In this document: piece by piece, positions 9,959 to 30,298 of the stretch | Layout: the number at the start of each line of letters is the position of its first letter | How positions within the stretch are numbered: the first letter of the stretch is position 1 | DNA from: Deltaproteobacteria bacterium | GTDB lineage: Bacteria > Desulfobacterota > Desulfarculia > Desulfarculales > Desulfarculaceae | DNA length: 38,134 nucleotides | Direction: 5' to 3' | Assembly (NCBI GenBank): GCA_020444205.1 | Contig: JAHLLJ010000024.1 | Location: 1-38,134 of the forward strand | Made by a program: the position numbers and the translations under genes | Notes under the pieces: model-generated | Seen by the model: the letters and a program-made list of their open reading frames with translations, nothing else | Database searches by the model: none | Told to the model about the DNA's origin: nothing

Positions 9959-9999
9959 TCTCGGCCATGAATACAGCTAACCCAAACGAGGAAAAAAAT

Positions 10000-10812
10000 A
10001 TGGCTTTTGCCACCAAACAGAATTTTGGTCTCAACCCGGTGGACGTTCGCGAAAGCGATCACTACCAGGATGAGTACGTAACCACTCTGGCCGACAAATG
10101 GGACGAACTTATCGATTGGAAAGCCAGGGCTGAAAGTGAAGGCGACTTTTTCATCCGCACCCTCAAGGAGCGCGGCGCCAAGAAAATTCTGGACGTGGCC
10201 ACCGGCACCGGCTTCCACTCCGTGCGTCTGCTCACCGAAGGCTTTGACGTAACCAGCGTGGACGGCAGCCCTCAGATGCTGGCCAAGGCCTTTGAGAATG
10301 CCAAGCGTCACGGCTTCATTCTCAATACCTGCTGCGCGGACTGGCGCTTTTTGAACCGCGACGTGCATGGCGAGTTTGACGCCATTATCTGCCTGGGTAA
10401 CTCCTTTACCCACCTGTTCAAGGAGAGGGACCGGCGCAAGGCCCTGGCCGAGTACTACGCCATGCTGGCTCACGACGGCGTGCTGATAATCGACCAGCGC
10501 AACTACGACGCCATGATCGACGACGGTTTCTCCTCCAAGCACAAGTACTACTATTGCGGCGACGGCGTAGTGGCCGAGCCCGAGCACGTGGACGAAGGCT
10601 TGGCCCGTTTCGTCTACCGGTTCAAGGACGGCACCGAGTTCTACTTGAACATGTGCCCCCTGCGCAAGGACTACCTCCGGCGTCTGCTGGGCGAGGTGGG
10701 CTTCCAGCGCATATCCACCTTTGGCGACTTCCAGGAGACCTACCGCGAGGACGATCCGGACTTCTTCGTGCACGTGGCTGAAAAAGAATTCATCGAGGAG
10801 ACCGAGCAGTAG
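10000..10812 (+). CDS. gsmt: Glycine/sarcosine N-methyltransferase
   Basis: Methylates glycine to sarcosine and sarcosine to dimethylglycine with SAM, the first two steps of de novo betaine synthesis. The sequence closely follows, from memory, the Halorhodospira-type enzyme: DHYQDEYV near residue 20, DKWDELIDW, SAM motif I ILDVATGTGFHSVRL (63-77), ICLGNSFTHLF and DQRNYD, ending in FFVHVAEKEF. I place the start at ATG 10000, preceded by GAGG 8 bases upstream, because this aligns with the family N-terminus. An upstream in-frame ATG at 9967 would add 11 residues but has no ribosome-binding site. The next methyltransferase starts 2 bases after the stop. Members of this family are soluble and often salt-tolerant. 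Confidence 0.95.
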   Translation: MAFATKQNFGLNPVDVRESDHYQDEYVTTLADKWDELIDWKARAESEGDFFIRTLKERGAKKILDVATGTGFHSVRLLTEGFDVTSVDGSPQMLAKAFENAKRHGFILNTCCADWRFLNRDVHGEFDAIICLGNSFTHLFKERDRRKALAEYYAMLAHDGVLIIDQRNYDAMIDDGFSSKHKYYYCGDGVVAEPEHVDEGLARFVYRFKDGTEFYLNMCPLRKDYLRRLLGEVGFQRISTFGDFQETYREDDPDFFVHVAEKEFIEETEQ

Positions 10813-10814
10813 AT

Positions 10815-11654
10815 ATGGAGCAGACCGACAATAGCGGTGCGGTAGACGTTGCCCGCGAATACTACAACAGCGGCGACGCCGATAACTTTTACTACTCCAT
10901 CTGGGGCGGCGAGGACATCCACATCGGGCTTTACCGGGACCCGGATGAGGACATCGCCACGGCCAGCCGGCGCACGGTGCTGACCATGGCCTCGCGCCTG
11001 GACGATATAGGCGAAAACACCCGAGTGCTGGACCTGGGTGCCGGTTTTGGCGGGGCCGCCCGCTGGCTGGCCCAAAATTTCGGCTGCCGGGTCACCGCCC
11101 TGAACCTTTCGGAGGTACAAAACCAGCGCGACCGCCAGATGAACCAGGAGCAGGGTTTGGACCACCTGGTCGAGGTGGTTGACGCCAGGTTTGAGGACGT
11201 TCCCCGCCCGGACAACAGCTACGACGTCATCTGGTCCCAGGATGCCATCCTGCACAGCCCCGACCGCACTAGAGTCATGGATGAGGTGCGTCGTGTGCTC
11301 AAGCCGGGGGGGCAGTTCGTTTTCACCGATCCCATGGCTGCCGATGACTGCCCTGAAGAGGTGCTGCAGCCCATCCTGGACCGTATCCATCTGGATAACC
11401 TGGGGTCGCCGGGCTTTTACCAGCAGACCCTGGGCGAACGTGGATTCCAGGACCGTGGCTTTGACGACCATACTGAACAATTGGTCACTCACTACAGCCG
11501 GGTGCTTCAGGAAACCGAAAAACGCCAGGATGAACTGCTGGAGACGGTCAGCCAAGAGTACATCGACAATATGAAAAAGGGGCTGAGGCACTGGGCCGAC
11601 GGCGGTCAAAAAGGCTACCTGGCCTGGGGCATCTTCAGCTACAAGGCTGCCTAA
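10815..11654 (+). CDS. sdmt: Sarcosine/dimethylglycine N-methyltransferase
   Basis: Completes betaine synthesis by methylating sarcosine and dimethylglycine to glycine betaine. The 279-residue protein has the family start AREYYNSGDADNFYYSIWGG, IHIGLY (35-40), SAM motif I VLDLGAGFGG (71-80), SQDAILHSPDR, FTDPMAADDCPEEVLQPILD and the C-terminal block GYLAWGIFSYKA. All match the Halorhodospira/Actinopolyspora-type SDMT rather than a generic class I methyltransferase. It is the last gene of the operon and is followed 25 bases later by a strong hairpin terminator. Together with gsmt it defines the glycine-methylation route, as opposed to choline oxidation. Confidence 0.95.
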   Translation: MEQTDNSGAVDVAREYYNSGDADNFYYSIWGGEDIHIGLYRDPDEDIATASRRTVLTMASRLDDIGENTRVLDLGAGFGGAARWLAQNFGCRVTALNLSEVQNQRDRQMNQEQGLDHLVEVVDARFEDVPRPDNSYDVIWSQDAILHSPDRTRVMDEVRRVLKPGGQFVFTDPMAADDCPEEVLQPILDRIHLDNLGSPGFYQQTLGERGFQDRGFDDHTEQLVTHYSRVLQETEKRQDELLETVSQEYIDNMKKGLRHWADGGQKGYLAWGIFSYKAA

Positions 11655-15306: not shown

Positions 15307-18024
15307 ATGCTGAAAAAGACGCTGGAGATCAACGGCCAGAAAAAGACTGTGGTGGCTTATGCCGACGAGTCATTGGCCAATGTGCTCCGGGAGGGCCTGG
15401 GCCTCACCGGCACCAAGGTTGGGTGCGGCGAGGGACAGTGTGGATGTTGCAACGTGATTTTGGATGGCAAACTGGTGCGCTCGTGCGTCACCAAGTTCTC
15501 CAAAGTACCGGAAGGGGCCTCGGTGATGACCATCGAGGGAGTGGGCACTCCCAAGAACCCACATCCCCTGCAGGTGGCCTGGATGGTGCACGGCGGCTCC
15601 CAGTGCGGCTTTTGCACTCCCGGCTTCATAGTCTCGGCCAAGGCCCTTTTGGAGACCAACCACGACCCAACCCGGGATGATATCCGTTCCTGGTTCCAGG
15701 TGCACCGCAACGCCTGCCGCTGCACTGGCTACCGCCAACTGGTGGACGCGGTGACGGACGGGGCCAAGGTCATGCGCGGCGAGATGACCCTGGAGGAACT
15801 TAGCTACAAGCTGCCCGAGGATGGCGTCATTTGGGGGAGCGAATACCCGCGCCCTTCGGCTTTGGCCAAGGTGACCGGCACCCTGGACTACGGGGCGGAT
15901 CTGGGGATCAAGATGCCCCCGGAAACCCTTCAGCTGGCCTTGGTGCAGGCCGAGGTTTCCCATGCCAACATCCTGTCCATCGACACCAGCGAAGCGGAGA
16001 AGATGCCCGGCGTGGTCAAGGTGGTGACCCATAAAGACGTCAAGGGCAAAAACCGCATCACCGGGCTGATCACCTTCCCCACCAACCTGGGCGATGGTTG
16101 GGACCGTCCCATTCTGTGCGATGAAAAGGTTTATCAATACGGCGATGCCATCGCCATCGTATGCGCCCACACCCAGGCCCAGGCCAAGGCCGCCGCGGCC
16201 AAGGTAAAGGTGGAGCTGGAAAAGCTTCCCGCCTACATGAGCGCTCCAGCGGCCATGGCCGAGGATGCCATGGAGATTCACCCCGGCACGCCCAACGTCT
16301 ACTTCACCCAGAAGATCGCCAAGGGCGAGGAGACCGCTCCCATTTTTGAAAAGGCCGACGTGGTGGTGGAGGATGACTTCTACGTAGGCCGCCAGCCCCA
16401 TATGCCCATGGAACCTGACGTTGGTTCCGCCTTTATCAACAAAGAAGGCAAACTCTACGTCCATTCCAAGTCCATCGGTTTGCACCTGCACGCGGCCATG
16501 ATCGCCCCCGGCCTGGGGGTGGAGCTGGAAAACCTGGTCATGGTGCAAAACCCGGCGGGTGGAACCTTTGGCTACAAGTTCAGCCCCACCATGGAGGCCC
16601 TGGTGGGGGCCGCCTGCCTGGCCACCGGGCAGCCGGTGTTTTTGCGCTACGACTACCACCAGCAGATGACCTATACCGGCAAGCGCTCCCCCTTCCTCAT
16701 GAACATGCGCTACGCCGCCGACAAGGAAGGCAAGCTGCTGGCCATGGAGACCGATTGGTCGGTTGACCATGGCCCCTACTCGGAGTTCGGTGACCTCTTA
16801 ACCCTGCGCGGGGCCCAGTTCATGGGTGCGGGCTACGATATACCGGCCATCCGGGGCGAAGGCCGCACCGTGTGCACCAACCACGCTTGGGGCTCGGCCT
16901 TCAGGGCCTATGGTTCGCCTCAGAGCGAGTTCTCCTCCGAGGTGCTCATGGACGAGCTGGCCGAGAAGCTGGGCATGGACCCCTTGGAGCTGCGTTATAA
17001 AAACGTCTACCGCCCCGGCTCTACCACCCCCACCGGCCAGGAGCCCGAGGTCTACTCCCTGCCCGAGATGCTTGATCTGCTGCGGCCCAAGTATGAGGCC
17101 GCCATGGCCAAGGCCAAGGAAAACTCCACCGGCGAGATCAAGCGGGGAGTAGGCATTTCCCTGGGCGTATACGGCTGCGGCCTGGATGGGCCGGACGCTT
17201 CCGAGGTGCGGGTGGAGCTCAACTCCGACGACACGGTGACCGTCTACTCCTGCTGGCAGGACCACGGCCAGGGCGCGGACATGGGCGCCTTGGGCACCGC
17301 CCACCAGGCTCTGCGCCCCCTGGGGTTGGCCCCGGAGCAGATCCGCCAGGTGATGAACGACACCGCCTTGGCCCCCAACAGCGGCCCCTCGGGCGGCAGC
17401 CGCCAGCAGGTGATGACCGGCATGGCCATCAAGGTGGGCTGCGAGGCCCTATTGGACGCCATGCGCAAGGACGACGGCACCTACCGCAGCTTCAGCGAGA
17501 TGATGGGCGAGGGCATTCCCGTTAAATACGACGGCAAGTGGACCGCCCCAGCCACCAACTGCGACGAGAACAGCCAGGGCGAGCCCTTCTCGGTGTACAT
17601 GTACGGCGTGTTCATGGCCGAGGTGGCGGTGGAAATAGCCACCGGCAAGACCACGGTGGAAAAGATGACCCTGGTGGCCGACATTGGGGAGATCAACAAC
17701 CGCCTGGTGACCGACGGCCAGATCTACGGCGGCTTGGCCCAGGGAGTTGGCCTGGCGCTTACCGAGGACTTTGAGGATATCCAAAAACACTCCACCCTGC
17801 GTGGCGGGGGCTTCCCCTATGCCAAGGATGTTCCCGACGACATGGAGGTGCTCTATGTGGAGACTCCACGTCCAGCCGGGCCCTTTGGCGCGGCGGGCGT
17901 GGGAGAGCTTCCCCTGACCACCCCCCATGCCGCCATCATCAACGGCATCTACAACGCCTGCGGAGCACGCATCACCCAGCTTCCGGCCAGGCCGGAAAAG
18001 GTCTTGGCCGCTCTGCAGGGCTAA
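15307..18024 (+). CDS. mop: Molybdenum aldehyde oxidoreductase (Desulfovibrio Mop type)
   Basis: Oxidises aldehydes to carboxylic acids with water as oxygen source. A single-chain xanthine oxidase-family enzyme of 905 residues, like D. gigas Mop (907), without the FAD domain. The first [2Fe-2S] cluster uses C40, C45, C48 and C60; the second uses C100, C103, C137 and C139, the same numbers as in D. gigas. The Mo domains run from about 200 to the end and include the catalytic Glu 867 in GAAGVGELPLTTPHAA. Long stretches such as DVKGKNRITGLITFPTN and QYTGKRSP-like TYTGKRSP match D. gigas from memory. An additional Cys at position 47 (D. gigas Ala) sits inside the first cluster loop. A 10-bp-stem hairpin separates it from the six accessory genes, with which it is conserved in desulfovibrios (DVU_1559 region). 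Electron acceptor in the cell: probably flavodoxin or ferredoxin (family knowledge). Confidence 0.96.
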   Translation: MLKKTLEINGQKKTVVAYADESLANVLREGLGLTGTKVGCGEGQCGCCNVILDGKLVRSCVTKFSKVPEGASVMTIEGVGTPKNPHPLQVAWMVHGGSQCGFCTPGFIVSAKALLETNHDPTRDDIRSWFQVHRNACRCTGYRQLVDAVTDGAKVMRGEMTLEELSYKLPEDGVIWGSEYPRPSALAKVTGTLDYGADLGIKMPPETLQLALVQAEVSHANILSIDTSEAEKMPGVVKVVTHKDVKGKNRITGLITFPTNLGDGWDRPILCDEKVYQYGDAIAIVCAHTQAQAKAAAAKVKVELEKLPAYMSAPAAMAEDAMEIHPGTPNVYFTQKIAKGEETAPIFEKADVVVEDDFYVGRQPHMPMEPDVGSAFINKEGKLYVHSKSIGLHLHAAMIAPGLGVELENLVMVQNPAGGTFGYKFSPTMEALVGAACLATGQPVFLRYDYHQQMTYTGKRSPFLMNMRYAADKEGKLLAMETDWSVDHGPYSEFGDLLTLRGAQFMGAGYDIPAIRGEGRTVCTNHAWGSAFRAYGSPQSEFSSEVLMDELAEKLGMDPLELRYKNVYRPGSTTPTGQEPEVYSLPEMLDLLRPKYEAAMAKAKENSTGEIKRGVGISLGVYGCGLDGPDASEVRVELNSDDTVTVYSCWQDHGQGADMGALGTAHQALRPLGLAPEQIRQVMNDTALAPNSGPSGGSRQQVMTGMAIKVGCEALLDAMRKDDGTYRSFSEMMGEGIPVKYDGKWTAPATNCDENSQGEPFSVYMYGVFMAEVAVEIATGKTTVEKMTLVADIGEINNRLVTDGQIYGGLAQGVGLALTEDFEDIQKHSTLRGGGFPYAKDVPDDMEVLYVETPRPAGPFGAAGVGELPLTTPHAAIINGIYNACGARITQLPARPEKVLAALQG

Positions 18025-18038
18025 ACATACACAAACGC

Positions 18039-18064
18039 GCGGCCGGGGTGAGAGCCCCGGCCGC
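18039..18064 (+). terminator. Intercistronic hairpin after mop (attenuator or mRNA stabiliser)
   Basis: GCGGCCGGGG (18039-18048) pairs perfectly with CCCCGGCCGC (18055-18064) around loop TGAGAG, followed by CGTCTTTCC. The weak T-tract suggests partial termination or 3'-end protection, which would leave much more mop mRNA than mRNA for the downstream accessory genes. Confidence 0.55.
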
Positions 18065-18094
18065 CGTCTTTCCAAGGGAAAACAGTAGGGCCCC

Positions 18095-20386
18095 ATGGAC
18101 CAAAGGCAACTGCGCGAGTTGGAGAGCCGCTGCATCGAGGAGAATCCTCCCTGGTGCATGGCCGCGTGTCCCCTGCATGTGGACGCCAGGAGCCTATGCA
18201 ACCGGGTGGCGGCGGGTGATTGGTCCGGGGCCTGGAAGGTGTTGCTGCGCACCATGCCCCTGCCGGGCATCCTGGGACGCATCTGCGACGCTCCCTGCCG
18301 GGAACGCTGCAAGCGCGGCGAAGCGGGAGAGGCTATCGCCATCAATGAGCTGGAACGGGCCTGCGTGAGCCACGCGCCGCCGGCCCGGCCCAAATCGGTC
18401 ATGCCCGCCCGCCCGGAGCAAACATCGGTGATAGGCAGTGGCATGTCCGGGCTCACCGCTGCTTGGGACCTGGCCCGCAAGGGGTTCAAGGTCACCCTGT
18501 TCGAGCCCGGTCCGGTTTTGGCCGCCGAACTTCGGGAGCGCCTTGCCGAACAGGTTCCCGCTGATGTGTTTGACTCCGAGCTGGCTATGCTCACTCGCGC
18601 CGGAGTGCGGGTGGAGCTTAACGCAGCGATTTATGAAGATGGTTTTCTGGAGAGCTGCCGGTCCGACAGCGCCGCAATGTTTCTCTCACTGGATGCCCTT
18701 GAGCCCGAATCCTGGCCCTTGTTGCAGGGCGCCGTGGCCTCTCCGGCCCAGACCACTGGCCGCGAGGGTATGTTCGCGTGCGGTCTGGAGCATGGCGGCT
18801 CGCCGGTGTGGCTGGCTGCTCAGGGCCGCTGGGGCGCCTCCTCCATGGACCGCTTTCTGCAAGGCGTCTCCCCCAGCGCGGGCCGGGAAAAAGATGGGCC
18901 ATATGAGACTCGCCTGTTCACCAGCCTGGAGGGAATAGATCCCCTGCCCATGGTGCCATTGAGCCCCGAAGGCTATGACGAGACTGCCGCTGCCCAAGAG
19001 GCGGGGCGCTGCTTGCAGTGCCACTGTTTGGAGTGCGTCAAGGTCTGCCCTTACTTGGAAAGCTTTGGGGCTTATCCCAAAAAGTACGCCCGGGAGATTT
19101 ACAACAACCAGTCCTTAGTCATGGGAGCCCGCCAGGCCAACAAGCTCATCGACTCATGCAGTCTGTGTGGCTTGTGCGAGGCGGTGTGTCCTGAGAGCTT
19201 CCCCATGCAGGCCCTTTGCCTAGCCACCCGGCGGGAAATGGTGGCCAAGGGCAAGATGCCGCCCTCTGCCCACGAGTTCGCCCTGTTGGACATGGAGTTC
19301 AGCCTGAGCGAGCATTTCCGCCTGGCCCGCCACCAGCCAGGCCACCAAGCCAGCGCCCAGGTGCTTTTCCCGGGCTGCCAACTGGCCGCCTCGTCCCCCG
19401 GCCAGTTGCGCCGGGTATACGAGCATCTTTGCGCCAACCTGCCTGGCGGAGTGGGCTTGATGCTGGCCTGCTGCGGAGCACCGGCCCATTGGGCCGGTCA
19501 GGAGGCCCGCGGCAACGAGGTCATCGAGACATGGCTTAGGGACTGGCGCGGCCTGGGCTCACCGCCGGTGATCATGGCCTGTTGCTCGTGCCGGGACATT
19601 TTCCGTACCTACTTGTCCGAAGTGGAGCAGGCGTTTTTGTGGGACGCCTTGCGCGACACCAACATTAGAATGGAACAGGCGCCTGACGAGCCCCTGGCCC
19701 TGCACGACCCCTGCACCACCCGCCATGATGCCCAAGCCCAGGCCACCATACGGACCGTACTGGCTCAGGCCGGAGTGGAAGTGGAAGAGCTTGCCCTTGG
19801 CCGGGAGCTGACCGAGTGCTGCGGTTACGGCGGTCTAATGGCCAACGCCAACCCCGAGCTGGCCAAGGAAGTGATCACCCGGCGAGGCGGGCAGAGCCCT
19901 CGCGATTATCTGGCCTACTGCGCGGTATGCCGCGACCGTTTGGCCGCCGTGGGCAAGCGGGCCTTGCACGCCCTGGATCTGTACTTCCCTGAGCCGGGCG
20001 AGCCGGACCCGGCGGCCCGTCCCAACCCCGGCTGGTCCGCTCGACGGGAGAACCGAGCCCGCCTCAAGGATGAGCTTCTGCGCGAGCTGTACAAGGAGGA
20101 GCCCCCGGCCATGGAGGCCTTTCGCCAAATAAAACTGTCGATGGCTCCCGAAGTTGCCGATCTGCTGGAGCGGCGGCGGATTCTTATCGAAGACGTACAG
20201 CAGGTCATCCACCACGCTGAAAACGGCGGCGACAAGCTGACCCACCCTGAAGCCGGCCACTTCCTGGCCTCCTTCCGGCCCTATAAGGCCACCTTCTGGG
20301 TGGAGTACAGCCCTGCGCCGGACGGCTACGAGGTGCACAACGCCTACTCCCACCGCATGACCGTGAAAACGGGAGCACGGCCATGA
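18095..20386 (+). CDS. Pyridine nucleotide-disulfide oxidoreductase-like / dicluster iron-sulfur protein
   Basis: A 763-residue soluble redox fusion. Residues 1-100 resemble the GltD-type N-terminal iron-sulfur domain, with cysteines at 13, 21, 25, 35, 64, 68 and 72. A dinucleotide-binding motif, VIGSGMSGLTAAWDLARKG, is at 112-130. The flavoprotein part is short (about 190 residues before the next cluster), so the NAD(P)H-binding half looks reduced or absent. A ferredoxin-like dicluster domain follows (CLQCHCLECVKVCP near 305; CSLCGLCEAVCP near 352), then HdrB/GlpC-like CCG segments (CCGA, MACCSC, DPCTTRH, CCGYGG near 575), and an uncharacterised C-terminal domain. It corresponds to the DVU_1558-type protein next to Mop in Desulfovibrio. 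A likely role is moving electrons between Mop or its partners and a cellular carrier. The ATG at 18095 has only a weak AGGG nearby. The next gene overlaps its stop by 4 bases. Confidence 0.8.
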   Translation: MDQRQLRELESRCIEENPPWCMAACPLHVDARSLCNRVAAGDWSGAWKVLLRTMPLPGILGRICDAPCRERCKRGEAGEAIAINELERACVSHAPPARPKSVMPARPEQTSVIGSGMSGLTAAWDLARKGFKVTLFEPGPVLAAELRERLAEQVPADVFDSELAMLTRAGVRVELNAAIYEDGFLESCRSDSAAMFLSLDALEPESWPLLQGAVASPAQTTGREGMFACGLEHGGSPVWLAAQGRWGASSMDRFLQGVSPSAGREKDGPYETRLFTSLEGIDPLPMVPLSPEGYDETAAAQEAGRCLQCHCLECVKVCPYLESFGAYPKKYAREIYNNQSLVMGARQANKLIDSCSLCGLCEAVCPESFPMQALCLATRREMVAKGKMPPSAHEFALLDMEFSLSEHFRLARHQPGHQASAQVLFPGCQLAASSPGQLRRVYEHLCANLPGGVGLMLACCGAPAHWAGQEARGNEVIETWLRDWRGLGSPPVIMACCSCRDIFRTYLSEVEQAFLWDALRDTNIRMEQAPDEPLALHDPCTTRHDAQAQATIRTVLAQAGVEVEELALGRELTECCGYGGLMANANPELAKEVITRRGGQSPRDYLAYCAVCRDRLAAVGKRALHALDLYFPEPGEPDPAARPNPGWSARRENRARLKDELLRELYKEEPPAMEAFRQIKLSMAPEVADLLERRRILIEDVQQVIHHAENGGDKLTHPEAGHFLASFRPYKATFWVEYSPAPDGYEVHNAYSHRMTVKTGARP

Positions 20387-20595
20387 ACATGGAAAACATC
20401 CAACCCGGGGACCTTGAATGGCGCTGTGAAAAATGCGGCACCAAGCTGGAGCCGGCCAAGGTAACCGTGGAGTACCTGGGCAACGAGTTCAGCGCTGAGC
20501 TGCCCCGCTGCCCACGCTGCGGCATGGTGATGATCTCCGAATCTCTCGCCCTGGGCAAAATGGCTGAAGTCGAACAGATCCTTGAGGACAAGTAG
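20383..20595 (+). CDS. Small CxxC/CxxC redox or zinc-ribbon protein (DVU_1557-like)
   Basis: A 70-residue protein with two cysteine pairs, WRCEKCG (C15, C18) and PRCPRCG (C43, C46), spaced like a rubredoxin or zinc ribbon but without the aromatic residues I would expect in a standard rubredoxin. One metal ion (Fe or Zn) held by four Cys is the simple reading. The ATG overlaps the previous stop (ATGA), showing translational coupling. It matches the small redox protein found at this position in the Desulfovibrio mop clusters. Its partner could be the dicluster protein upstream or the radical SAM protein downstream; the sequence does not decide. Confidence 0.75.
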   Translation: MNMENIQPGDLEWRCEKCGTKLEPAKVTVEYLGNEFSAELPRCPRCGMVMISESLALGKMAEVEQILEDK

Positions 20596-20598
20596 GCC

Positions 20599-21324
20599 GT
20601 GCGCCAGGCTGCACCATATGAGTCTCCCGGGCTGCGCGAAGTAACCGGCCCGGCCTTGCGGCCCGGCGGCCTGGCACTGACTCAGCGGGCGGTGGAGTTG
20701 TGCGGCTTGGCACCTGGGGAGAGGGTGCTGGACCTCGGCTGTGGCTTGGGGGCCAGCGTCGATTACCTGAACGAGACGCACGGCCTGCGCGCGTTTGGCC
20801 TGGACCTATCCGCCGCGATGCTGGCCCAGGCACGTAGCGATCACCCCGGCCTGGCCCTGGCGCGCGGTGAGGCCTCGGGCCTACCCTTGCGTTCGGCCAG
20901 CTTGCATGGGGTGTTTCTGGAATGCGTGCTCTCCCTGGCCGATGATCCCGGCGCGGTGCTGGCCGAGTGCCGGAGGGTGCTGGGGCCAGGCGGCTGGCTG
21001 GTGCTCAGCGATCTCTACTTGCGCGCACCACATGTGGATGCCATGGCCGCGCAATTGCCCGGTTGCCTGGGCGGAGCGCGTAGCCGCGAAGGATGGCAGG
21101 AGTTAGTGATATCAGCCGGGCTGGAGCTGATGACCTGGGAGGATCACACAGACCACTTGCGACGCTTGGCCGCCCAGCTGGCCTGGTCTCACGGCTCGGC
21201 CACGGCCCTGTGGGGCGGCTGCGATGATGGCGGGGATTGCCAAGACCTGAGCAAAATAATCGCCCAAACGCGGCCCGGCTACTTCCTGCTACTGGGCCGC
21301 AAAAAGGGAGAGCGCCATGAATGA
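20599..21324 (+). CDS. Class I SAM-dependent methyltransferase (DVU_1556/TrsM-like)
   Basis: A 241-residue Rossmann-fold methyltransferase with motif I VLDLGCGLGA (43-52), acidic FGLDLSAAM after the second strand, and post-motif PGGWLVLSDLYLR. A Cys-containing segment near the end (CDDGGDCQDLSKI) is unusual for the superfamily. It starts at a GTG 3 bases after the preceding stop, and its own stop lies within the next gene (8-base overlap). The family regularly occurs with the radical SAM protein TrsS and Mop; the methyl acceptor is not known. It could act on a small product or on a protein or cofactor made by the cluster. Confidence 0.8.
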   Translation: MRQAAPYESPGLREVTGPALRPGGLALTQRAVELCGLAPGERVLDLGCGLGASVDYLNETHGLRAFGLDLSAAMLAQARSDHPGLALARGEASGLPLRSASLHGVFLECVLSLADDPGAVLAECRRVLGPGGWLVLSDLYLRAPHVDAMAAQLPGCLGGARSREGWQELVISAGLELMTWEDHTDHLRRLAAQLAWSHGSATALWGGCDDGGDCQDLSKIIAQTRPGYFLLLGRKKGERHE

Positions 21325-21775
21325 CACTACCATTAGGGTGATGCGCCTGGCCGCCCAAGGTCTGTATTGCAGCCAGATACTCATGGCCCTGGCCCTGGAG
21401 GCAGCCGGCCGCGCCAACCCAGAGCTTATCCGCTCTTTGGCAGGACTGGCTTTTGGCGGTGGCACGGGCAAGGGTTCCTGCGGGGTGCTCACCGGTGGCT
21501 GCTGCGTGCTGGCCCTGTACGCGGGCAAGGCGGGCGCGGGCGAAGAAGAGCATCCCACTCTCATGCCCATGCTGGAGGAGTTCGGCGACTGGTTCGCGGC
21601 CCAGGCCCAGTGCGGCGGCGCGGTAAGCTGCGAAGCCATCATGGGCGACAACGCCCCCCGCCAACCCCAGCAAAAATGCGGGGAGTTGGTGGCCCAGGCC
21701 TTTGACAAGGTCGTTGAGATGCTGGTGGCCAACGGCTTTGACCCGGCCAGCCCCGGCCAGGCTTATGAGTACTGA
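21317..21775 (+). CDS. C_GCAxxG_C_C family protein (DVU_1555-like)
   Basis: A 152-residue helical protein with conserved cysteines: C18 in LYCSQ, then SCGVLTGGCCVLALYAG (54-70), C98 in AQCGG, C104 in SCEAI and C123 in QKCGE. This is the C_GCAxxG_C_C pattern, thought to bind a metal or act in redox transfer; the biochemical role is not established. The central GCAxxG block is varied here to CGVLTGGCC, with a Cys pair. It overlaps the methyltransferase by 8 bases and the radical SAM gene by 11, so all three are probably made together. Confidence 0.8.
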   Translation: MNDTTIRVMRLAAQGLYCSQILMALALEAAGRANPELIRSLAGLAFGGGTGKGSCGVLTGGCCVLALYAGKAGAGEEEHPTLMPMLEEFGDWFAAQAQCGGAVSCEAIMGDNAPRQPQQKCGELVAQAFDKVVEMLVANGFDPASPGQAYEY

Positions 21776-23114
21776 GTCTAGCCACGGCCAGAGCCTGTGC
21801 CCCCATTGCCTGGCTCTGATTCCCGCCCGCTATGAGCACGAGGGCGATCAGGTCTTTCAAGTGAAGCAGTGCCCGGAGCACGGTGTATTCCGCACCGTGG
21901 TTTGGCGGGGGGAACCGGCCTTTGCCTCCTGGCGCAGGCCCAAGATTCCCGCCCAGCTAACCTACCACGCCGCCCCAGCGGAGCGCGGTTGCCCCTTTGA
22001 CTGCGGCCTGTGCCCGGAGCATCGCCAGCGCACCTGCACCGCCATCCTGGAGGTGACCCAGCGCTGCGACCTGGGCTGCCCGGTATGCTATGCCGACTCC
22101 TGCGGGCAGGGAGAAGACCCCAGCCTGGAACAAGTGGAGTCCTGGTATCGCGCGGTGCTGCAAAGCGGCTCGGGTTGCAATATCCAGCTTTCCGGAGGCG
22201 AGCCCACCCTGCGCGACGATTTGCCCCAGCTGGTCGTCCTGGGCCGCGAGCTGGGATTCGGCTTCGTGCAGGTGAACACCAATGGTCTACGTCTGGGCCG
22301 CGAGCCTGATTATCTGCACGCCCTGACCCAGGCGGGCATGGCTTCAATCTTCCTGCAGTTCGACGGGGTGGAAGACCGGGTATATGAAAAGCTGCGGGGC
22401 AGGGCACTGCTGGCGGACAAGCTGCGCGTCCTGGACGCCTGCGCCCGGGCGGGAGTTGGCGTAGTGCTGGTGCCCACCCTGGTGCCGGGGGTGAATCTGG
22501 ATCAGGTCGGCCCCATCCTGGATCTGGCCCAGGAGCGCTCGCCCACGGTGCGCGGGGTACACTTCCAGCCCATGAGCCGTTTTGGCCGCTTTCCCAGCGG
22601 CCTGGGCGATGACCAGCGTCTCACCCTGCCCGAGCTTATCCAGGCCATAGACCAACAGACCAGCGGCCGTTTCCCGGCAGAGTCCTTCCGGCCGCCTGGT
22701 TGCGAAAATTCCCTGTGCTCCTTTCAGGGCAACTTCCTGCTGCATAATGATGGACGGGTACAGTCCTTGAGCCAGGCCCACGATCCGGCCTGCTGCCCCG
22801 CGCCCGAGCCCGCCGAACAGGGCGCCCTGCGCACCATTGCCCGGGTGTCGCGCAACTGGGCCGCGCCCACACCATCAGCCTGCGGCTGCGACGCGCCAAA
22901 AGGCGACGGCCCACTAAGCTTGGACCAGTTCATAGATATGGCCAAGCAGGGTACTCTGTCGGTATCAGCCATGGCCTTTCAAGATGCCTGGAATTTGGAC
23001 CTCGATCGGGTGCGCGATTGCTGCATCCACGTGGTCTCGCCCCAGGGCAAGCTGATTCCCTTTTGCCTGTACAACCTCACCAGCAGCTCAGGAGAGAGGC
23101 TTTACCGGCCATGA
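21765..23114 (+). CDS. Radical SAM protein TrsS (MJ0619/Tes-like architecture)
   Basis: A radical SAM enzyme of 449 residues. The [4Fe-4S]-SAM motif is CDLGCPVC (C101, C105, C108), preceded by GCPFDCGLCPEHRQRTC (75-91) and an N-terminal zinc-ribbon-like CPHC...CPEHG (C12, C15, C36). Downstream are the SAM-contacting SGGEPT and a C-terminal block, RDCCIHVVSPQGKLIPFC (417-434). This layout closely resembles the MJ0619 (methanopterin methylase) and Tes (tetraether lipid synthase) group, which carry extra metal clusters and perform difficult C-C chemistry. NCBI names this subfamily TrsS and notes Cys or selenocysteine forms; here cysteines are present and no in-frame TGA occurs. I choose ATG 21765 inside the previous gene; an upstream in-frame start at 21702 encodes an unlike leader. 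The reaction is unknown. Confidence 0.85.
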   Translation: MSTESSHGQSLCPHCLALIPARYEHEGDQVFQVKQCPEHGVFRTVVWRGEPAFASWRRPKIPAQLTYHAAPAERGCPFDCGLCPEHRQRTCTAILEVTQRCDLGCPVCYADSCGQGEDPSLEQVESWYRAVLQSGSGCNIQLSGGEPTLRDDLPQLVVLGRELGFGFVQVNTNGLRLGREPDYLHALTQAGMASIFLQFDGVEDRVYEKLRGRALLADKLRVLDACARAGVGVVLVPTLVPGVNLDQVGPILDLAQERSPTVRGVHFQPMSRFGRFPSGLGDDQRLTLPELIQAIDQQTSGRFPAESFRPPGCENSLCSFQGNFLLHNDGRVQSLSQAHDPACCPAPEPAEQGALRTIARVSRNWAAPTPSACGCDAPKGDGPLSLDQFIDMAKQGTLSVSAMAFQDAWNLDLDRVRDCCIHVVSPQGKLIPFCLYNLTSSSGERLYRP

Positions 23115-24442
23115 GCGCTTACCCCCGCACCCCGCTGGACCACTGGCTGGAGCGCAAGCTGGGCCTGCCGACCAATACGGCGCCCGATCCCGAGGCCCTG
23201 GCCGATTATCAGCTTGAACGCCTGCGCCAAACCGTGGCTTACTTACGTGAGCATAGCCCCTTTTACCGCAGGCGTCTGGCCGGGTTAGCCGCCGAGCCCC
23301 TGGACAGTCTGGCCGACTTGGCCCGCCGGCCTTTCACCACGGCCCAGGATTTGCGAGAGCATCATCAGGCCATGCTCTGCCTGTCCCAAAGCCGGGTGGC
23401 TCGGGTGGTGACCCTCAATACCTCGGGCACCACTGCCGCGCCCAAGCGGCTCTATTTCAGCGACGATGATTTGGAGCTGACCCTGAACTTTTTTCATCTC
23501 GGCATGTCCACCATGGTGGAACCGGGCGGCCGGGTGCTTATCTTGTTGCCTGGGCGCACGCCGGACAGCGTGGGCGACCTGCTGGCCCGGGCCCTGGCCC
23601 GCATGGAGGTGCAGGGCGTGATCCACGGACCGGTGGCCGACCCCGCAGAAACCCTGGCGCAGGCCTTGGCCGTGGAGGCCGATTGCCTGGTGGGAATACC
23701 GGTGCAGGTCCTGGCCCTGGCCGAGCACCCGGCAGCCCAAAGCCTGTGCGGCAAAATAAAGAGTGTGCTGCTCACCACAGACTACGTGCCTCGAGCCCTG
23801 GCCCGGCGGGTGGAGGCTGCTTGGGGTTGCGAGGTGTTCGAGCACTATGGCATGACCGAGACCGGCCTGGGCGCGGGAGTGGATTGCCGGGCCCACCAAG
23901 GCTATCACTTGCGGGCGGCTGACCTGTACTACGAGGTGGTAAACCCCATGGACGGTGCGCTACTACCGCCGGGCGAAGAGGGCGAGTTGGTGATGACCAC
24001 CCTCACTCGCCAAGCCATGCCCCTGTTGCGCTATCGCACCGGCGACCTGGGCCGCCTGCTGCCCGGGCCCTGCCCCTGTGGCGGTTTTACTCCGCGTTTG
24101 GCGCGCGTGCCCGGCCGCCTGAGCAACCGGCTGGATTTGGGAGGCGGGGTGGGGTTGCCCATGTGGCGCTTGGACGAGGCCCTGTTTGCCCTGCCCGGGC
24201 TGCTGGATTTCCGTGCCGTTTTGAGCGGGGACCGGGGAAAGCGGCGCTTGGAGTTGACCGTGCGCCCTACGCCCGCAATGGCGCACGACTTGGCGGCCAG
24301 GGCGGCACAGGCCGTGAAGGAGCTTCCAGAGCTGGCTGAGCACTTTGCCACTGGCGAGCTGACCCTGGGGCCGGTGCGCTGCATTGACCTTGCCTGGATC
24401 AGCGACGGCACAGCCAAGCGTAGCTTTAGTTTGCCCCGTTGA
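23111..24442 (+). CDS. Adenylate-forming CoA-ligase-like protein (DVU_1553-like)
   Basis: A 443-residue ANL-superfamily enzyme related to phenylacetate-CoA ligase. It has the phosphate loop NTSGTTAAPKRLYF (about 103-116), the adenine-site motif HYGMTETGLGAG (about 245) and YRTGDLGRLL before the hinge; these predict carboxylate + ATP to acyl-adenylate. The C-terminal domain is short, and a CPCGG pair sits just after the hinge. Its ATG overlaps the radical SAM stop (ATGA); the longer frame from 23018 lies within trsS and is rejected. As last gene before the terminator it could activate the acid produced by Mop, or adenylate a precursor during cofactor or metabolite assembly. Substrate unknown. 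Confidence 0.82.
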   Translation: MSAYPRTPLDHWLERKLGLPTNTAPDPEALADYQLERLRQTVAYLREHSPFYRRRLAGLAAEPLDSLADLARRPFTTAQDLREHHQAMLCLSQSRVARVVTLNTSGTTAAPKRLYFSDDDLELTLNFFHLGMSTMVEPGGRVLILLPGRTPDSVGDLLARALARMEVQGVIHGPVADPAETLAQALAVEADCLVGIPVQVLALAEHPAAQSLCGKIKSVLLTTDYVPRALARRVEAAWGCEVFEHYGMTETGLGAGVDCRAHQGYHLRAADLYYEVVNPMDGALLPPGEEGELVMTTLTRQAMPLLRYRTGDLGRLLPGPCPCGGFTPRLARVPGRLSNRLDLGGGVGLPMWRLDEALFALPGLLDFRAVLSGDRGKRRLELTVRPTPAMAHDLAARAAQAVKELPELAEHFATGELTLGPVRCIDLAWISDGTAKRSFSLPR

Positions 24443-24459
24443 TGAGGGACGCCGGCCTT

Positions 24460-24493
24460 TGCCCTGGGCCGTATACGGCTAGGGCAGCTTTTT
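24460..24493 (+). terminator. Rho-independent terminator of the mop cluster
   Basis: TGCCCT (24460-24465) pairs with AGGGCA (24481-24486), enclosing the perfect palindrome GCCGTATACGGC (24468-24479), followed by GCTTTTT. It lies 17 bases after the ligase stop and marks the end of the seven-gene unit. A second small hairpin (GTAGGC 24506-24511 with GCCTAC 24520-24525) overlaps the stop of the opposing dehydrogenase gene. Confidence 0.85.
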
Positions 24494-24521: not shown

Positions 24522-25559
24522 CTACTCCCCGGGTTGCCCCTGAGGAGGCTTCCAGCGGTTTACCAGGTTGGGAGGCATACGGCCCTCCAAAACCGCCGCC
24601 AGGTTGCGCACACACAGGAAGCCCACCTCATAGGCGACCTCCACGGTGAAGCTGGCATTGTGGGGGGTGGCGATGACCTGGGGCAGCTTGGCCAGGGGAT
24701 TGTCGCCCACCGGCTCCTCACAAAACACGTCCAGAGCCGCTCCGGCCAGGTGGCCGCTTTGCAGGCTTTCCAGCAAATCCGCCTCGTTGATCAACTCTCC
24801 CCGGCCCAGATTGAGCAGATAGGCCCCGGGTTTCATCATGGCCAGTTGGGGGGCCTGGATCACCCCCTTGGTCTCTGGAGTGCCCGGTAGGTGCAAGGAA
24901 ACAAAGTCGGATTCAGCCAGCAACTCCTCCAGGGAGACCCAGGATATGCCGTGACGGCCGGTGAACTCCCGGTCATGAGTGCGGCCACAGGCCATCAGCT
25001 TCATGCCCAGGCATTTGGCCATGATGGCCACCTCCTTGCCGATCTGGCCCAGGCCCACGATGCCCAAGGTGCGCCCCCCCAGGCGGCAGCCCACCACCGG
25101 GTGCCAGCCGCCTTGCTTCACCAGGCGGTCGGCCTGGGGTATTTGCCGGGCCAGGGCGAAGAGCAAGCCTATGGTGAACTCGGCCACGGACAAGGCGTTG
25201 CCGCCGGGCACGTTGCACACCGCGATACCCAGCTCCTCGGCTGCTTGCACATCAATGTGGTCCACGCCCACGCCATGCACCGCTATGACCTTCAGCCGGG
25301 GAAGGGCCCGCATGATATCTCCGTCAATCTTGGTCATGCCGGGAATCATGCCGTCGCAGTCCTTGAGAAACTCCTTCACCGTCTCTGGGGTCACTTTGAA
25401 ACCACGGGGCCGGATAACCACCTCCCAACCCTTGTCCCGCAGCCATTGGGCCGGCTGGGGGGCATGGCTGCCAAAGGTGGGCCCCAGCGAGCAGACACGC
25501 ATGGTTTTATGGGGGTGGCTTTGGGGAGGAGAGGGGAGTTCGGGCTTGGTGTCGGTCAT
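24522..25559 (-). CDS. D-isomer-specific 2-hydroxyacid dehydrogenase (SerA-like)
   Basis: An NAD-dependent dehydrogenase of 345 residues that interconverts a 2-oxoacid and a D-2-hydroxyacid. It has the Rossmann motif LGIVGLGQIG (165-174) and the catalytic set Arg 253 (NLGRGELI), Glu 282 (DVFCEEP) and His 300 (TPHNAS). Without an ACT regulatory domain it is shorter than long-form SerA; 3-phosphoglycerate, glycerate or another 2-oxoacid are all possible substrates. The ATG at 25559 has AGGA 8 bases upstream; an in-frame ATG 18 bases earlier lacks one. It is transcribed alone, convergent to the mop cluster and divergent from the GntR gene, so the GntR protein might also control it. An oxoacid formed by the nearby aminotransferase could be its substrate (inference). 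Confidence 0.88.
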   Translation of the reverse strand: MTDTKPELPSPPQSHPHKTMRVCSLGPTFGSHAPQPAQWLRDKGWEVVIRPRGFKVTPETVKEFLKDCDGMIPGMTKIDGDIMRALPRLKVIAVHGVGVDHIDVQAAEELGIAVCNVPGGNALSVAEFTIGLLFALARQIPQADRLVKQGGWHPVVGCRLGGRTLGIVGLGQIGKEVAIMAKCLGMKLMACGRTHDREFTGRHGISWVSLEELLAESDFVSLHLPGTPETKGVIQAPQLAMMKPGAYLLNLGRGELINEADLLESLQSGHLAGAALDVFCEEPVGDNPLAKLPQVIATPHNASFTVEVAYEVGFLCVRNLAAVLEGRMPPNLVNRWKPPQGQPGE

Positions 25560-25794
25560 GGTAAATATCCTCATCATCTAAGCGAAAAGCAGAGGCAAGG
25601 TCCTCCAACCGGCTAGATCGTGGAGGGTAATCCTGCCCCACGCGGGACGATCCTGCAACCAGGGCTGGGAGCGCGGCACTCTAAAATGCCTTTACCGTCC
25701 CTGTCCGCCGGCGAACCATGACCGCCTTGCATCTTGGGCATACCTACCATTGGGTTGGATTGTCTATGACATAAATCCAGTCAATACGGGGCAT

Positions 25795-26258: not shown

Positions 26259-26272
26259 TCATGTCGACATGA
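26259..26272. promoter_or_regulatory. Palindrome over the GntR start codon, candidate autoregulatory operator
   Basis: TCATGTCGACATGA is a perfect 14-bp palindrome whose right arm contains the ATG at 26269-26271. Its core ATGTCGACAT fits the GT-Nx-AC symmetry typical of GntR-family operators. A second ATGTCGA lies 12 bp upstream (26249-26255). Binding here would block translation or early transcription of the regulator's own gene. Confidence 0.5.
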
Positions 26273-26946
26273 ACAAGCAAAACACCACTAAAAAAGTCTT
26301 TGAGGAAATCAGGCACCGCATTCTTTCCTTCCAGATTTTGCCTGGCGTTAGGCTTTCAGACAACGAGTTGGCCAAGGAATTGGGGATGAGCAGGACGCCG
26401 GTTCGTCAGGCTCTTTTTCAACTTTCCGAAAAGGGTTTGGTGGAAGCCAGACACAACAAGGGCTTTAGGGTCCGGGTATTCACCCTCAGCGATGTGGAAG
26501 ATTTGTATCTCTTTCGGGAGGCGGTGGAGACACTGGCTGTTAAGCGGGCCACTGCCAAAATGAACCAGGAAAGGGCCGCTATTTTAAGGGAGCATATCGC
26601 CGCCTATCCTCAAATTATCCATTCCGGCGACATAATTCAGTTCAACAAAATGGACGCCCGCTTCCACCACTTGATCGCCGAATTTTCCGAAAACCATCTT
26701 CTGGTCAAAACCATAAGCAATTTAAAAGACCAGCTACAGATTATCGTGCGCTACCAGCATTTGGCTCCCCACAGCTACGAGGAAACTCAAGTGGAACATG
26801 GGCTGATCATGGAGCATATCCTGGCCGGCCGCGTGGACGACGCGGTTAAGGCCATGTCTGATCACATACTTACCTCAATGGGTGTTGTCTTGGAAATGAT
26901 GGAGAAATACGGACAGACAGGTGGGACTAATGACCAAGCAGATTAA
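26269..26946 (+). CDS. GntR-family (FadR/FCD) transcriptional regulator
   Basis: A 225-residue ligand-responsive regulator. The N-terminal winged helix-turn-helix is at about 10-72, with LSDNELAKELGMSRTPVRQA as the recognition region. The C-terminal all-helical FCD domain keeps the metal/ligand residues D129, H133, H177 and H199. FCD proteins usually sense a carboxylated metabolite of the pathway they control. It is the first gene of the aminotransferase/transport/amidohydrolase series and overlaps the aminotransferase by 17 bases. There is no ribosome-binding site before the only possible ATG, and a palindrome overlaps that start, pointing to weak, autoregulated expression. Confidence 0.9.
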   Translation: MNKQNTTKKVFEEIRHRILSFQILPGVRLSDNELAKELGMSRTPVRQALFQLSEKGLVEARHNKGFRVRVFTLSDVEDLYLFREAVETLAVKRATAKMNQERAAILREHIAAYPQIIHSGDIIQFNKMDARFHHLIAEFSENHLLVKTISNLKDQLQIIVRYQHLAPHSYEETQVEHGLIMEHILAGRVDDAVKAMSDHILTSMGVVLEMMEKYGQTGGTNDQAD

Positions 26947-28216
26947 CAAAGACACCTACGAGACCTACTTTTCACCCTGTTTGGCCAAGTCCACCGACCT
27001 GGTGATCGAACGGGCGCAAGGGGCCTATATCTACACCCCCGACGGCGAGCAATACCTAGACTTGGTTCAAGGTATCGCGGTCAATGCCTTGGGTCACTCC
27101 GACCCTGGGGTGTTGGCGGCCGCCAAGGGACAGATCGACAAGATCGTCCACGGTTCATTCAACCTGGTTAGCTTCCCCAGCACCCTGGAAATGGCCTCCA
27201 AACTGGCCCGGGTCACGCCCGATGGCCTGGATATGTTCTTTCTCACCAACAGTGGGGCCGAAGCGGTTGAAGGCTGCATGAAGCTGGCCCGCTACGTTAC
27301 CGGCCGCACCAGCTACCTGGCTTTCAAAGGCGGTTTCCACGGCCGGACCATGGGCGCGGCTTCCATCACCACCTCTTCGGTGAAGTTCCGCGAGCACTAT
27401 GCGCCCTTTGTGCCTCAGGTCTACTTTGCCGATTATCCCTACTGCTACCGCTGTCCTTATGGCTGCCAGGAAGCTTCCTGTTCCCTGGAGTGCCTGGCCG
27501 CGCTCAAGGAAAACACCAAGACCATTATTCCTGCCGATGAGATCGCCTGCGCGATTTTCGAGCCGGTCATGGGCGAAGGCGGCTACGTGGTACCCCCCAA
27601 AAAGTACTTGGTCGCTCTGCGCGAGTTCTGCGACGAGCACGGCATTCTGCTGGTCTTTGACGAGGTCCAGACCGGTGTGGGACGCACCGGCAGGTTTTTC
27701 GCCTCGCAGCATTTCGGGGTAACTCCGGATGTGATGTCCATGGGCAAGGCGGTTGGCGGAGGCTTCCCCCTGGGCATCGTGGTTTCCACCAAGGAGTTGA
27801 TGAACCGCTGGTCGGCCGGTGCCCACGGCACCACCTTTGGCGGCCATCCGGTGGCCGCCGCCGCCGCCATGGAGGTGATCGCCCGGGTGTCGGCGCCTGG
27901 TTTCTTGGACCGGGTAGGGGAAATGGGTGAGTATTTCCGGGCCGGTCTGAGCAAGCTCCAGAAAAAGGATTCCCGCATAGGTGATGTGCGCGGGGTAGGT
28001 CTCATGAACGCCATGGAGTTGGTGGGCGAGGGCAAAAAGCCCGATGCACAGTTGGCGGGTGCCATTTTCAATGGGCTCAAAGAGCGCAAAATCCTGGCTC
28101 TGCCCTGCGGACCGGACAAGAACGTGATCCGCTTCATTCCGCCCTTGAATGTTGAAATTGAACTTTTAGATCACTGCTTGGCGGTTCTGGAAGAGGTTTT
28201 GGATTCCTTGAACTGA
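26930..28216 (+). CDS. Class III PLP-dependent aminotransferase (4-aminobutyrate aminotransferase-like)
   Basis: A 428-residue fold-type I transaminase that moves an amino group from an omega-amino or amine substrate to a 2-oxoacid. Landmarks are FLTNSGAEAVEGCMKLAR, FKGGFHGRTMGA, FDEVQTGVGRTG and the PLP Lys 273 in SMGKAVGGGFPLG. A Cys-rich insert, YCYRCPYGCQEASCSLEC, sits about a third of the way in; similar inserts occur in some archaeal and deltaproteobacterial members. I choose ATG 26930 with AGGTGGG just upstream over the GTG at 26921. Linked transport and amidohydrolase genes suggest an amino compound from imported or hydrolysed material. The exact substrate (4-aminobutyrate, beta-alanine, other) is open. 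Confidence 0.9.
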   Translation: MTKQINKDTYETYFSPCLAKSTDLVIERAQGAYIYTPDGEQYLDLVQGIAVNALGHSDPGVLAAAKGQIDKIVHGSFNLVSFPSTLEMASKLARVTPDGLDMFFLTNSGAEAVEGCMKLARYVTGRTSYLAFKGGFHGRTMGAASITTSSVKFREHYAPFVPQVYFADYPYCYRCPYGCQEASCSLECLAALKENTKTIIPADEIACAIFEPVMGEGGYVVPPKKYLVALREFCDEHGILLVFDEVQTGVGRTGRFFASQHFGVTPDVMSMGKAVGGGFPLGIVVSTKELMNRWSAGAHGTTFGGHPVAAAAAMEVIARVSAPGFLDRVGEMGEYFRAGLSKLQKKDSRIGDVRGVGLMNAMELVGEGKKPDAQLAGAIFNGLKERKILALPCGPDKNVIRFIPPLNVEIELLDHCLAVLEEVLDSLN

Positions 28217-28219
28217 AGT

Positions 28220-28250
28220 CCCCCAACCGCTTCTACGCCAAGGCTGGGGG
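28220..28250 (+). terminator. Weak hairpin after the aminotransferase
   Basis: CCCCCA (28220-28225) pairs with TGGGGG (28245-28250) around a 19-base loop 4 bases past the stop; GAGCATTTCC follows. No good T-run, so at most a partial terminator that could separate expression of the aminotransferase from the transporter. Confidence 0.35.
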
Positions 28251-28386
28251 GAGCATTTCCCCAGGCTCGGGGTAAGGGAGCTTTGGCTCGGATTGGGCTT
28301 TGGGAAGATTATGAACCGCGCGTACTTAATGCCGGTGTTGTAGCGCCAAGGACCTTGGCGGCAAACACATTGACGGAGAATGGCGA

Positions 28387-29325
28387 TTGGCCCGGCAAAT
28401 CTTAAATAGACTGATTGTCTCCATACCGGTCATATTCGGTGTGCTGCTGGTTGGCTTCGCCCTGTTGCAGGTGGTTCCCACCGATCCCGCCCATGTGTTG
28501 GCCGGGCCCACGGCCCCTCAGGAAACCATCGAGGCCATACGTCATGACCTTGGCCTGGACAAGCCCTGGTATGTCCAATTCTGGTTGTACCTGGGCCGGG
28601 TGCTCCACGGAGACCTGGGCCGCTCCATTATCAGCAACACCAAGGTGTCCAGTGAGTTGGCCATGGCCATGGGGCCCACCCTGGAGCTCATGTTCGCCAG
28701 CCTTATCTGGGCCATCCCCTCCGGAATCATCATGGGCACCGTGTCCGCGGTATACCGGGGGCGTTGGCTGGACCGGCTTATCATGGGCGTTTCCGTGGCC
28801 GGGGTTTCCATGCCCATCTTTTGGCTGGGTCTGATTCTCATGGAATACGTGGGCATGAAATGGCAACTGCTGCCCTTTTCCGGGCGCACTGGGCCTCTTT
28901 GGACCCTTGAGGGCATACAGGGGATTGCCATGGCCGCTTTTTCCCTGGGCGGAGTTTTTGTGGGCCCGGTGGCCCGCATGACCCGAACCAGCGTCTTGGA
29001 AGTGCTGAACGCGGACTTTGTGCGCACCTCCAGGGCCAAGGGGGTTAGTGAGTTTCGCGTGGTCACCCGCCACGCCCTGCGCAACGCGCTCATTCCGGTG
29101 GTCACCCTAATTGGGCTGCAAGCCGGATACCTGTTGGGCGGGGCGGTGGTCACCGAGACCCTGTTCAGTTGGCCCGGTGTGGGCCGTCTGGCCGTGGGGG
29201 CCATTTTATCCGCCGATTTCCCCTTGGCCCAAGGCGCGATCATCGTGCTGGGAGTCGGCTTTGTGGTCATAAACCTGATGATTGACGTGATCTACAGCTA
29301 TCTTGATCCGAGGACGGGCAAGTGA
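28387..29325 (+). CDS. dppB: ABC transporter permease, DppB/OppB type
   Basis: Inner-membrane subunit of a peptide/opine/nickel-type importer, 312 residues, six membrane segments by eye. The ATPase-contacting EAA loop is ADFVRTSRAKGVSEFRVVTR followed by HALRNALIP, as in the family. It starts at a TTG with GGAG 8 bases upstream; the nearby ATG at 28380 is out of frame. The stop overlaps the next permease (TGATG). The gene symbol marks the transporter class only: the substrate is probably a small nitrogen compound rather than a dipeptide, given the linked amidohydrolases. Confidence 0.9.
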   Translation: MARQILNRLIVSIPVIFGVLLVGFALLQVVPTDPAHVLAGPTAPQETIEAIRHDLGLDKPWYVQFWLYLGRVLHGDLGRSIISNTKVSSELAMAMGPTLELMFASLIWAIPSGIIMGTVSAVYRGRWLDRLIMGVSVAGVSMPIFWLGLILMEYVGMKWQLLPFSGRTGPLWTLEGIQGIAMAAFSLGGVFVGPVARMTRTSVLEVLNADFVRTSRAKGVSEFRVVTRHALRNALIPVVTLIGLQAGYLLGGAVVTETLFSWPGVGRLAVGAILSADFPLAQGAIIVLGVGFVVINLMIDVIYSYLDPRTGK

Positions 29326-30248: not shown

Positions 30249-30298
30249 ATGGCAAACGGATTTAACAACCCTCAAACCAAAAACCAGAGGAGAATTAA

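Follow-up and report, generated by a model that had tools for sequence, protein, structure and literature searches.

A set of seven genes that places a molybdopterin aldehyde oxidoreductase beside a radical S-adenosylmethionine (SAM) enzyme, a methyltransferase, and a ligase lies within a stretch of 38,134 nucleotides (the window, contig JAHLLJ010000024.1) from a deltaproteobacterium of the family Desulfarculaceae. Profile search with curated cut-offs found the genes on the + strand at 15307–24442, in the order mop-DCB-C4-TrsM-CGA-TrsS-LIG, and every protein exceeds the curated cut-off of its NCBIfam model. The first gene, mop (15307–18024), encodes an enzyme of the xanthine-oxidase (XO) family that lacks an FAD domain (NF045668, 1697 bits; cut-off 1100). 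The six accessory genes that follow are DCB (18095–20386), an Fe-S/flavin protein (NF045663, 993 bits; cut-off 530); C4 (20383–20595), a small, zinc-ribbon-like DUF7479 protein (NF045645, 105 bits; cut-off 60; PF24292); TrsM (20599–21324), a class I SAM methyltransferase (NF045667, 251 bits; cut-off 155); CGA (21317–21775), a C_GCAxxG_C_C protein (NF045669, 156 bits; cut-off 103; PF09719); TrsS (21765–23114), a Tes-type radical SAM enzyme (NF045646, 656 bits; cut-off 490); and LIG (23111–24442), a PaaK-like adenylate-forming ligase (NF045666, 474 bits; cut-off 300). A terminator-like hairpin followed by CTTTTT (about 24461–24493, + strand; –24.5 kcal/mol) closes the set. The same gene order is seen at over 70 loci from several phyla, far beyond chance. 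An earlier note on this DNA had described seven genes ending in one terminator, and the gene ends agree with it, including the tight spacing of the accessory genes (junctions of –4, 3, –8, –11, and –4 bases from DCB onward). It had also placed mop within 0 to 3 bases of the accessory genes, which is incorrect: the gap spans 70 bases (18025–18094) and contains a strong hairpin.

The hairpin between mop and DCB (18039–18064, + strand) reads GCGGCCGGGG-TGAGAG-CCCCGGCCGC, with a stem of 10 bp that is entirely GC. The gap has a folding energy of –32.8 kcal/mol and a z-score of –3.5 against shuffled sequences, which preserved base composition only and not dinucleotides. Gaps with z < –2 were found in 61 of the 68 relatives that have mop and DCB near each other. 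When the first 135 nt of the gap were compared with an equal length upstream of mop, z fell below –2 in 55/63 relatives versus 7/63 controls (Wilcoxon p = 7e-12). The place of the hairpin is kept across relatives while the sequences differ. Such a hairpin likely makes Mop and the accessory genes differ in expression level, and may set their ratio.

The window Mop matches NF045668 over its full length (residues 3–904) and the D. gigas Mop structures in the PDB (1SIJ and 1VLB) with 1459 bits, which makes it a near relative of that enzyme. It retains the eight cysteines at positions 40, 45, 48, 60, 100, 103, 137, and 139, which we take to bind the [2Fe-2S] clusters, and Glu867 in a GVGELP motif, presumably the active-site glutamate, both roles being assigned by reference to the Desulfovibrio gigas enzyme. 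The selenium-dependent molybdenum hydroxylases are similar in that an XO-family enzyme comes together with XdhC and MocA and, in some relatives, with a pyridoxal phosphate enzyme of EF2568 type; in contrast to these, the window Mop scores 446 on TIGR03311 (cut-off 830) and the window has no EF2568-type gene. The Mop of D. gigas was an early and heavily used structural model of the XO family, its structures contain the ordinary pterin cytosine dinucleotide (MCD), the purified protein oxidizes aldehydes, and flavodoxin functions as its acceptor (PMC10223205). In the literature searched we found neither a published role for the neighbor genes of D. gigas-type Mop nor a physiological pathway for the enzyme. 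The genome from which the window derives encodes a second Mop-like protein (G000:C237:4730-7363) that scores about 820 bits, under the Mop cut-off, and similar paralogs below the cut-off also occur in relatives that are free of TrsS.

The TrsS profile gives a full-length alignment with GDGT-MAS (PDB 7TOL; 426 bits). In an alignment of 26 TrsS sequences, every metal ligand of Tes is kept: the rubredoxin-like Cys3His site (C12, C15, C36, and H39), the ligands of the N-terminal auxiliary 4Fe-4S cluster (C76, C80, C83, and H86), the radical SAM CX3CX2C motif (C101, C105, and C108), and the ligands of the C-terminal auxiliary 4Fe-4S cluster (C318, C419, and C434, together with M403, which aligns with the labile Met439 of Tes) are all invariant. 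These likenesses, which extend to Tes/GDGT-MAS structures 7TOL and 7TOM, suggest that TrsS chemistry is similar to that of Tes. TrsS differs from Tes in forming its own clade (support 99), in scoring 336 against a cut-off of 450 on the Tes model, and in being accompanied by a ligase, a methyltransferase, and Mop, mostly in bacterial genomes. The earlier note had treated MJ0619 and Tes as two relatives of TrsS and had raised a pterin-directed role by analogy with the former. MJ0619 and Tes are one enzyme, with GDGT-MAS (7TOL) as the product of mj0619, and the claim of pterin methylation was not corroborated (PMC9433317). Pterin methylation was therefore rejected for TrsS. The name of the TrsS family includes an optional '(seleno)protein', and no in-frame TGA was found within the matched region, either in the window or in about 120 loci; the one apparent TGA (G695) is the stop codon. 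A search of literature titles and term counts gave no gene link for lipid-backbone methylation in Methanomassiliicoccales as a parallel to TrsS.

TrsM has two cysteines, C109 and C156, that fall in the same alignment columns as the paired cysteines of five proteins annotated as ArsM arsenite methyltransferases. In ArsM this pair binds As(III). C109 is kept in 76/76 relatives, and both cysteines in 71/76. The C109 column is the stronger ArsM-type signal because none of three control methyltransferases has a cysteine there, whereas two of the three have one at the less specific C156 column. Apart from its own model, the NCBIfam families that TrsM matches best include ArsM-type ones. In contrast with ArsM, the TrsM alignment shows no conserved cysteine ahead of the SAM motif, where ArsM has its N-terminal cysteines, the protein scores 69 bits on the ArsM model (cut-off 263), and its genomic company is different. 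The pair provides a lead, and nothing firmer, toward a soft methyl acceptor. In loci L086 (3740–7416) and L184, open reading frames that weakly match an AAA-ATPase lie between TrsM and CGA and are possibly an insert within the cluster. Separately, on haloarchaeal plasmids (L228, L229, L231, L232, and L236) and on a Mycolicibacterium plasmid (L230), a gene for a Tes-superfamily radical SAM protein is paired with one for a TrsM-like methyltransferase that has the ArsM-type cysteines, and a gene for a redoxin, a DUF547 or DUF3179 protein, or an arsenate-reductase-like protein lies nearby. The L231 pair is the only one that lies downstream of an arsenate-reductase-like gene. The haloarchaeal pair was considered as a direct homolog of the TrsS core and rejected, since its radical SAM protein falls outside the TrsS clade.

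DCB combines a GltD-like FAD/NAD domain, a 4Fe-4S dicluster, and an HdrB-like CCG domain (Pfam Fer4_20, Fer4_17, and CCG), followed by a C-terminal domain of 85 residues that exists as a stand-alone protein in some relatives (set B, below). C4 is fused to this C-terminal domain in four loci (L069, L177, L185, and L173), and a fold search with the C-terminal domain and C4 gave nothing better than a weak RelE-like match (E = 0.08). Because two of the fused forms, both archaeal (L177 and L173), have lost the C4 cysteines, C4 should not be assumed to be a redox protein. The product families listed in the earlier note are otherwise supported by the NCBIfam cut-offs, and it is only the label 'four-Cys redox protein' for C4 that is doubtful. 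CGA has four invariant cysteines (C18, C55, C105, and C121) and is modeled by AlphaFold2 as a helical protein (pLDDT 90), for which a fold search against the PDB gave no match. LIG matches the PaaK structure 2y27 and its catalytic lysine, K436, is conserved in at least 93% of 89 relatives, which places it in the PaaK fold family with coenzyme A as a putative acceptor.

Co-occurrence gives strong support to a functional link between Mop and the accessory genes. Across a sample of 395 genomes from the phylum to which the window belongs (Desulfobacterota-type), TrsS exceeds its model cut-off in 43 and Mop in 34. TrsS occurs in 33 of the 34 Mop genomes, in one case split over two contigs (Fisher p about 1e-35), and the lone Mop genome without TrsS (G241) has Mop at contig ends only. 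The pattern is replicated in Bacillota, where all 18 TrsS genomes have Mop, and TrsS is present in 18 of the 21 genomes with Mop. The three Bacillota exceptions are all fragmentary in this region: one has only a piece of Mop where a contig ends (G485), in another Mop runs off the contig end (L217), and the third has one copy followed by DCB at a contig end (L215) and one on a short contig (L216). The ligase exceeds its cut-off in 33/38 TrsS genomes and TrsM in 35/38.

A wider view of TrsS came from a scan of species genomes, in which 80 loci turned up across several phyla and in archaea; the loci from the phylum sample were added to these. In the TrsS tree the Tes-like proteins split off first, then 20 sequences that we call set B, and then clade A (104 rows, support 99), which contains no member of set B. 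Set B may be paraphyletic, with its archaeal members branching first. Mop is at the locus in 77/103 clade-A rows (the window excluded) and in 0/20 set-B rows. Eight clade-A genomes without Mop at the TrsS locus were followed up, with several clade-A loci on short contigs left out: Mop is on another contig, over its cut-off, in six and present as fragments in two. It likewise lies on contigs other than the TrsS locus in G377, G340, and G296. The pairing of Mop with clade-A TrsS is near-obligate. In one clade-A member from the window's own genus (G358, locus L069), an Fdh/PhsA-like molybdoenzyme and homologs of AsrA and AsrB stand at the usual place of Mop.

The core common to clade A and set B consists of the DCB C-terminal domain, C4, TrsM, TrsS, and the ligase; CGA is found at only 3/20 set-B loci. 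Five set-B genomes that are 85–100% complete (G212, G131, G075, G108, and G039) encode no MoCoBD_1 protein and hence no XO-family enzyme, so the expectation that the core occurs only alongside such an enzyme failed. The arrangement that the earlier note had named as speaking against its proposal, accessory genes with no Mop or other molybdo-hydroxylase nearby, is what set B presents. Set-B loci keep company of three kinds. In the first, a TRAP importer is found with AcsV, a corrinoid protein, and subunits that are TfrAB-like or Fdh-like (L073, L074, and L148; L076, L077, and L178). The second has double-cubane or HadBC-like proteins (L070, L072, and L156, the first two also with an activase). 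The third, in archaea, has a URO-D/MtaA-like protein adjoining TrsS, with PdxT in three loci, and two Methanomassiliicoccales genomes have no specific TrsM. The MtaA/URO-D-like family methylates thiols from corrinoids.

Genes that look like, or are, molybdenum-cofactor genes follow Mop and not the core. Among 103 clade-A loci, XdhC (NF045664) is present in 36, a MocA-HD NTP transferase (NF045665) in 44, and a MoeA-like protein in 32, and all three are at 0/20 set-B loci. Clade A is also accompanied by a CobC-like phosphatase and, in rare cases, by a selenocysteine-lyase-like desulfurase, which occur never or once with set B. The phosphatase was considered as a pointer to cobamide chemistry and rejected, because it tracks Mop rather than set B. 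In the window's genome, XdhC and the NTP transferase are on other contigs (C80 and C192), away from the set.

We propose, with a probability of roughly 0.45, that the six accessory genes encode a self-contained small-molecule pathway, the Trs core, and that Mop serves as one of its enzymes in clade A. That the core exists in set B without Mop or any XO-family enzyme argues for a separate pathway rather than a cofactor kit. The earlier note had offered two readings of the set. The one in which an aldehyde is oxidized by Mop, the acid is adenylated by the ligase, and the radical SAM protein and methyltransferase modify the carbon skeleton is tentatively favored here; the one in which the accessory genes build or load a special cofactor is disfavored, both by set B and by the ordinary MCD of the D. 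gigas enzyme (PMC10223205).

In the proposed pathway, Mop would probably oxidize an aldehyde that is a substrate or intermediate, LIG would activate a carboxylate as an acyl-AMP or acyl-CoA, and DCB with C4 would provide low-potential electrons. TrsS would direct a 5'-deoxyadenosyl radical at an unactivated sp3 carbon, the resulting carbon radical could be held on a sulfide of the C-terminal 4Fe-4S cluster with Met403 as the labile ligand, as in Tes, and a C-C (or C-S) bond would then form. TrsM would methylate a soft, thiolate-held atom through C109 and C156, and in the archaeal loci the MtaA/URO-D-like protein occupies its expected place. The full version of this scheme, an undescribed two-step chemistry in which radical bond formation and soft-atom methylation act on a LIG-activated acid and the pathway aldehyde is the natural substrate of Mop, is rather unlikely as a whole. 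Importers adjoin the core in some clusters (TRAP in L073, L074, L076, L077, L148, and L178; ABC in L162) and hint at uptake and breakdown rather than synthesis.

Several points weigh against the pathway proposal. The Trs core has yet to be assigned a substrate, a product, or an intermediate, and no cluster of the clade-A type has obvious upstream or downstream metabolic enzymes. Two clade-A genomes, G358 and G253, have TrsS without Mop over the cut-off and are true exceptions so far. The near-obligate co-occurrence could equally be explained if Mop needs a product of the core for maturation or as an electron acceptor, and the unequal expression implied by the hairpin 3' of mop suggests an accessory role just as well.

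The least improbable alternative, which we nevertheless consider unlikely, is that the core makes a diffusible electron carrier or thiol that serves Mop in clade A and other oxidoreductases elsewhere. Mop, which has no FAD domain, depends on an external partner for electron transfer, DCB has the HdrB-like CCG domain, and varied redox systems adjoin set B, where candidate users would be TfrAB-like (L073) or double-cubane (L070, L072, and L156) proteins, in addition to the Fdh-like and AsrA/AsrB proteins of L069. However, the set-B neighbors vary by lineage with no single user evident, and flavodoxin already accepts electrons from D. gigas Mop (PMC10223205).

Somewhat less probable still is a role in maturation, in which the core would modify either Mop itself or, once MCD has been made, its molybdenum cofactor, and clade A would represent the repurposing of an older module. 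The near one-to-one relation of Mop and clade-A TrsS fits this idea, as does the presence in the cluster of XdhC, MocA-HD, MoeA-like, and sometimes desulfurase genes, and the conserved hairpin would be consistent with an excess of Mop over accessory enzymes. The same cofactor genes make the idea unlikely, because they track Mop and never set B, whose core exists without any XO-family enzyme. In addition, the ligase and the Tes-type radical enzyme have no obvious task on MCD, and D. gigas Mop contains the pterin cytosine dinucleotide and is active on aldehydes as purified (PMC10223205).

We regard it as quite improbable that TrsS and an ArsM-like TrsM act on an organo-arsenic, organo-selenium, or organo-sulfur compound, either making it or breaking it down. 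The coincidence of C109 and C156 with the ArsM pair, the ArsM-type families among the best non-self matches, the MtaA/URO-D-like protein of the archaeal loci, and the plasmid pair behind an arsenate-reductase-like gene all point in this direction. Yet TrsM lacks the N-terminal cysteines of ArsM and scores far under its cut-off, that reductase neighbor occurs on one plasmid only and with a radical SAM protein outside the TrsS clade, ars genes were neither seen next to the window set nor named in the clade-A clusters, and gut clostridia are an unlikely home for a dedicated arsenic pathway. That the genes are mere neighbors with no common function can be dismissed: the hairpin does part mop from the others, but the counts of conserved gene order and co-occurrence across phyla refute it.

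The protein families described here are already in the NCBIfam catalog, where the accessory genes of the window match models named after DVU_1553, DVU_1555, DVU_1556, and DVU_1557 of the D. vulgaris locus DVU_1551–1559; an assignment of their chemistry was not found in any source searched. In D. vulgaris Hildenborough, DVU_1553 is the ligase gene, DVU_1556 trsM, DVU_1559 mop, and, judging by gene order, DVU_1554 trsS. XdhC and a DVU_1551-type NTP transferase follow the set in many relatives, in contrast to the window genome, where they are on other contigs. For DVU_1551–1559, the literature search returned only abundance values for Mop and one table entry for TrsS, and the passages found of a paper on the sigma-54 regulon do not mention this cluster. 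The near-obligate pairing of Mop and TrsS offers a concrete genetic handle on the pathway of Mop. Tes chemistry, which couples inert carbons, would gain a second and bacterial context, one that includes gut clostridia as well as acetogens and sulfate reducers, and the pterin idea can be dropped as a guide to the function of TrsS.

Other genes surround the set in the window. A D-2-hydroxyacid dehydrogenase gene on the minus strand (24522–25577) converges with the ligase gene across the terminator. Upstream, at 7302–11654, metK, ahcY, a glycine/sarcosine N-methyltransferase, and a sarcosine/dimethylglycine-type methyltransferase lie consecutively, an arrangement that resembles glycine betaine synthesis with SAM recycling. 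Downstream, at 26269–37321, a GntR regulator, an aminotransferase, a peptide/nickel-type ABC transporter, and amidohydrolases form what is probably an unrelated uptake and breakdown cluster.

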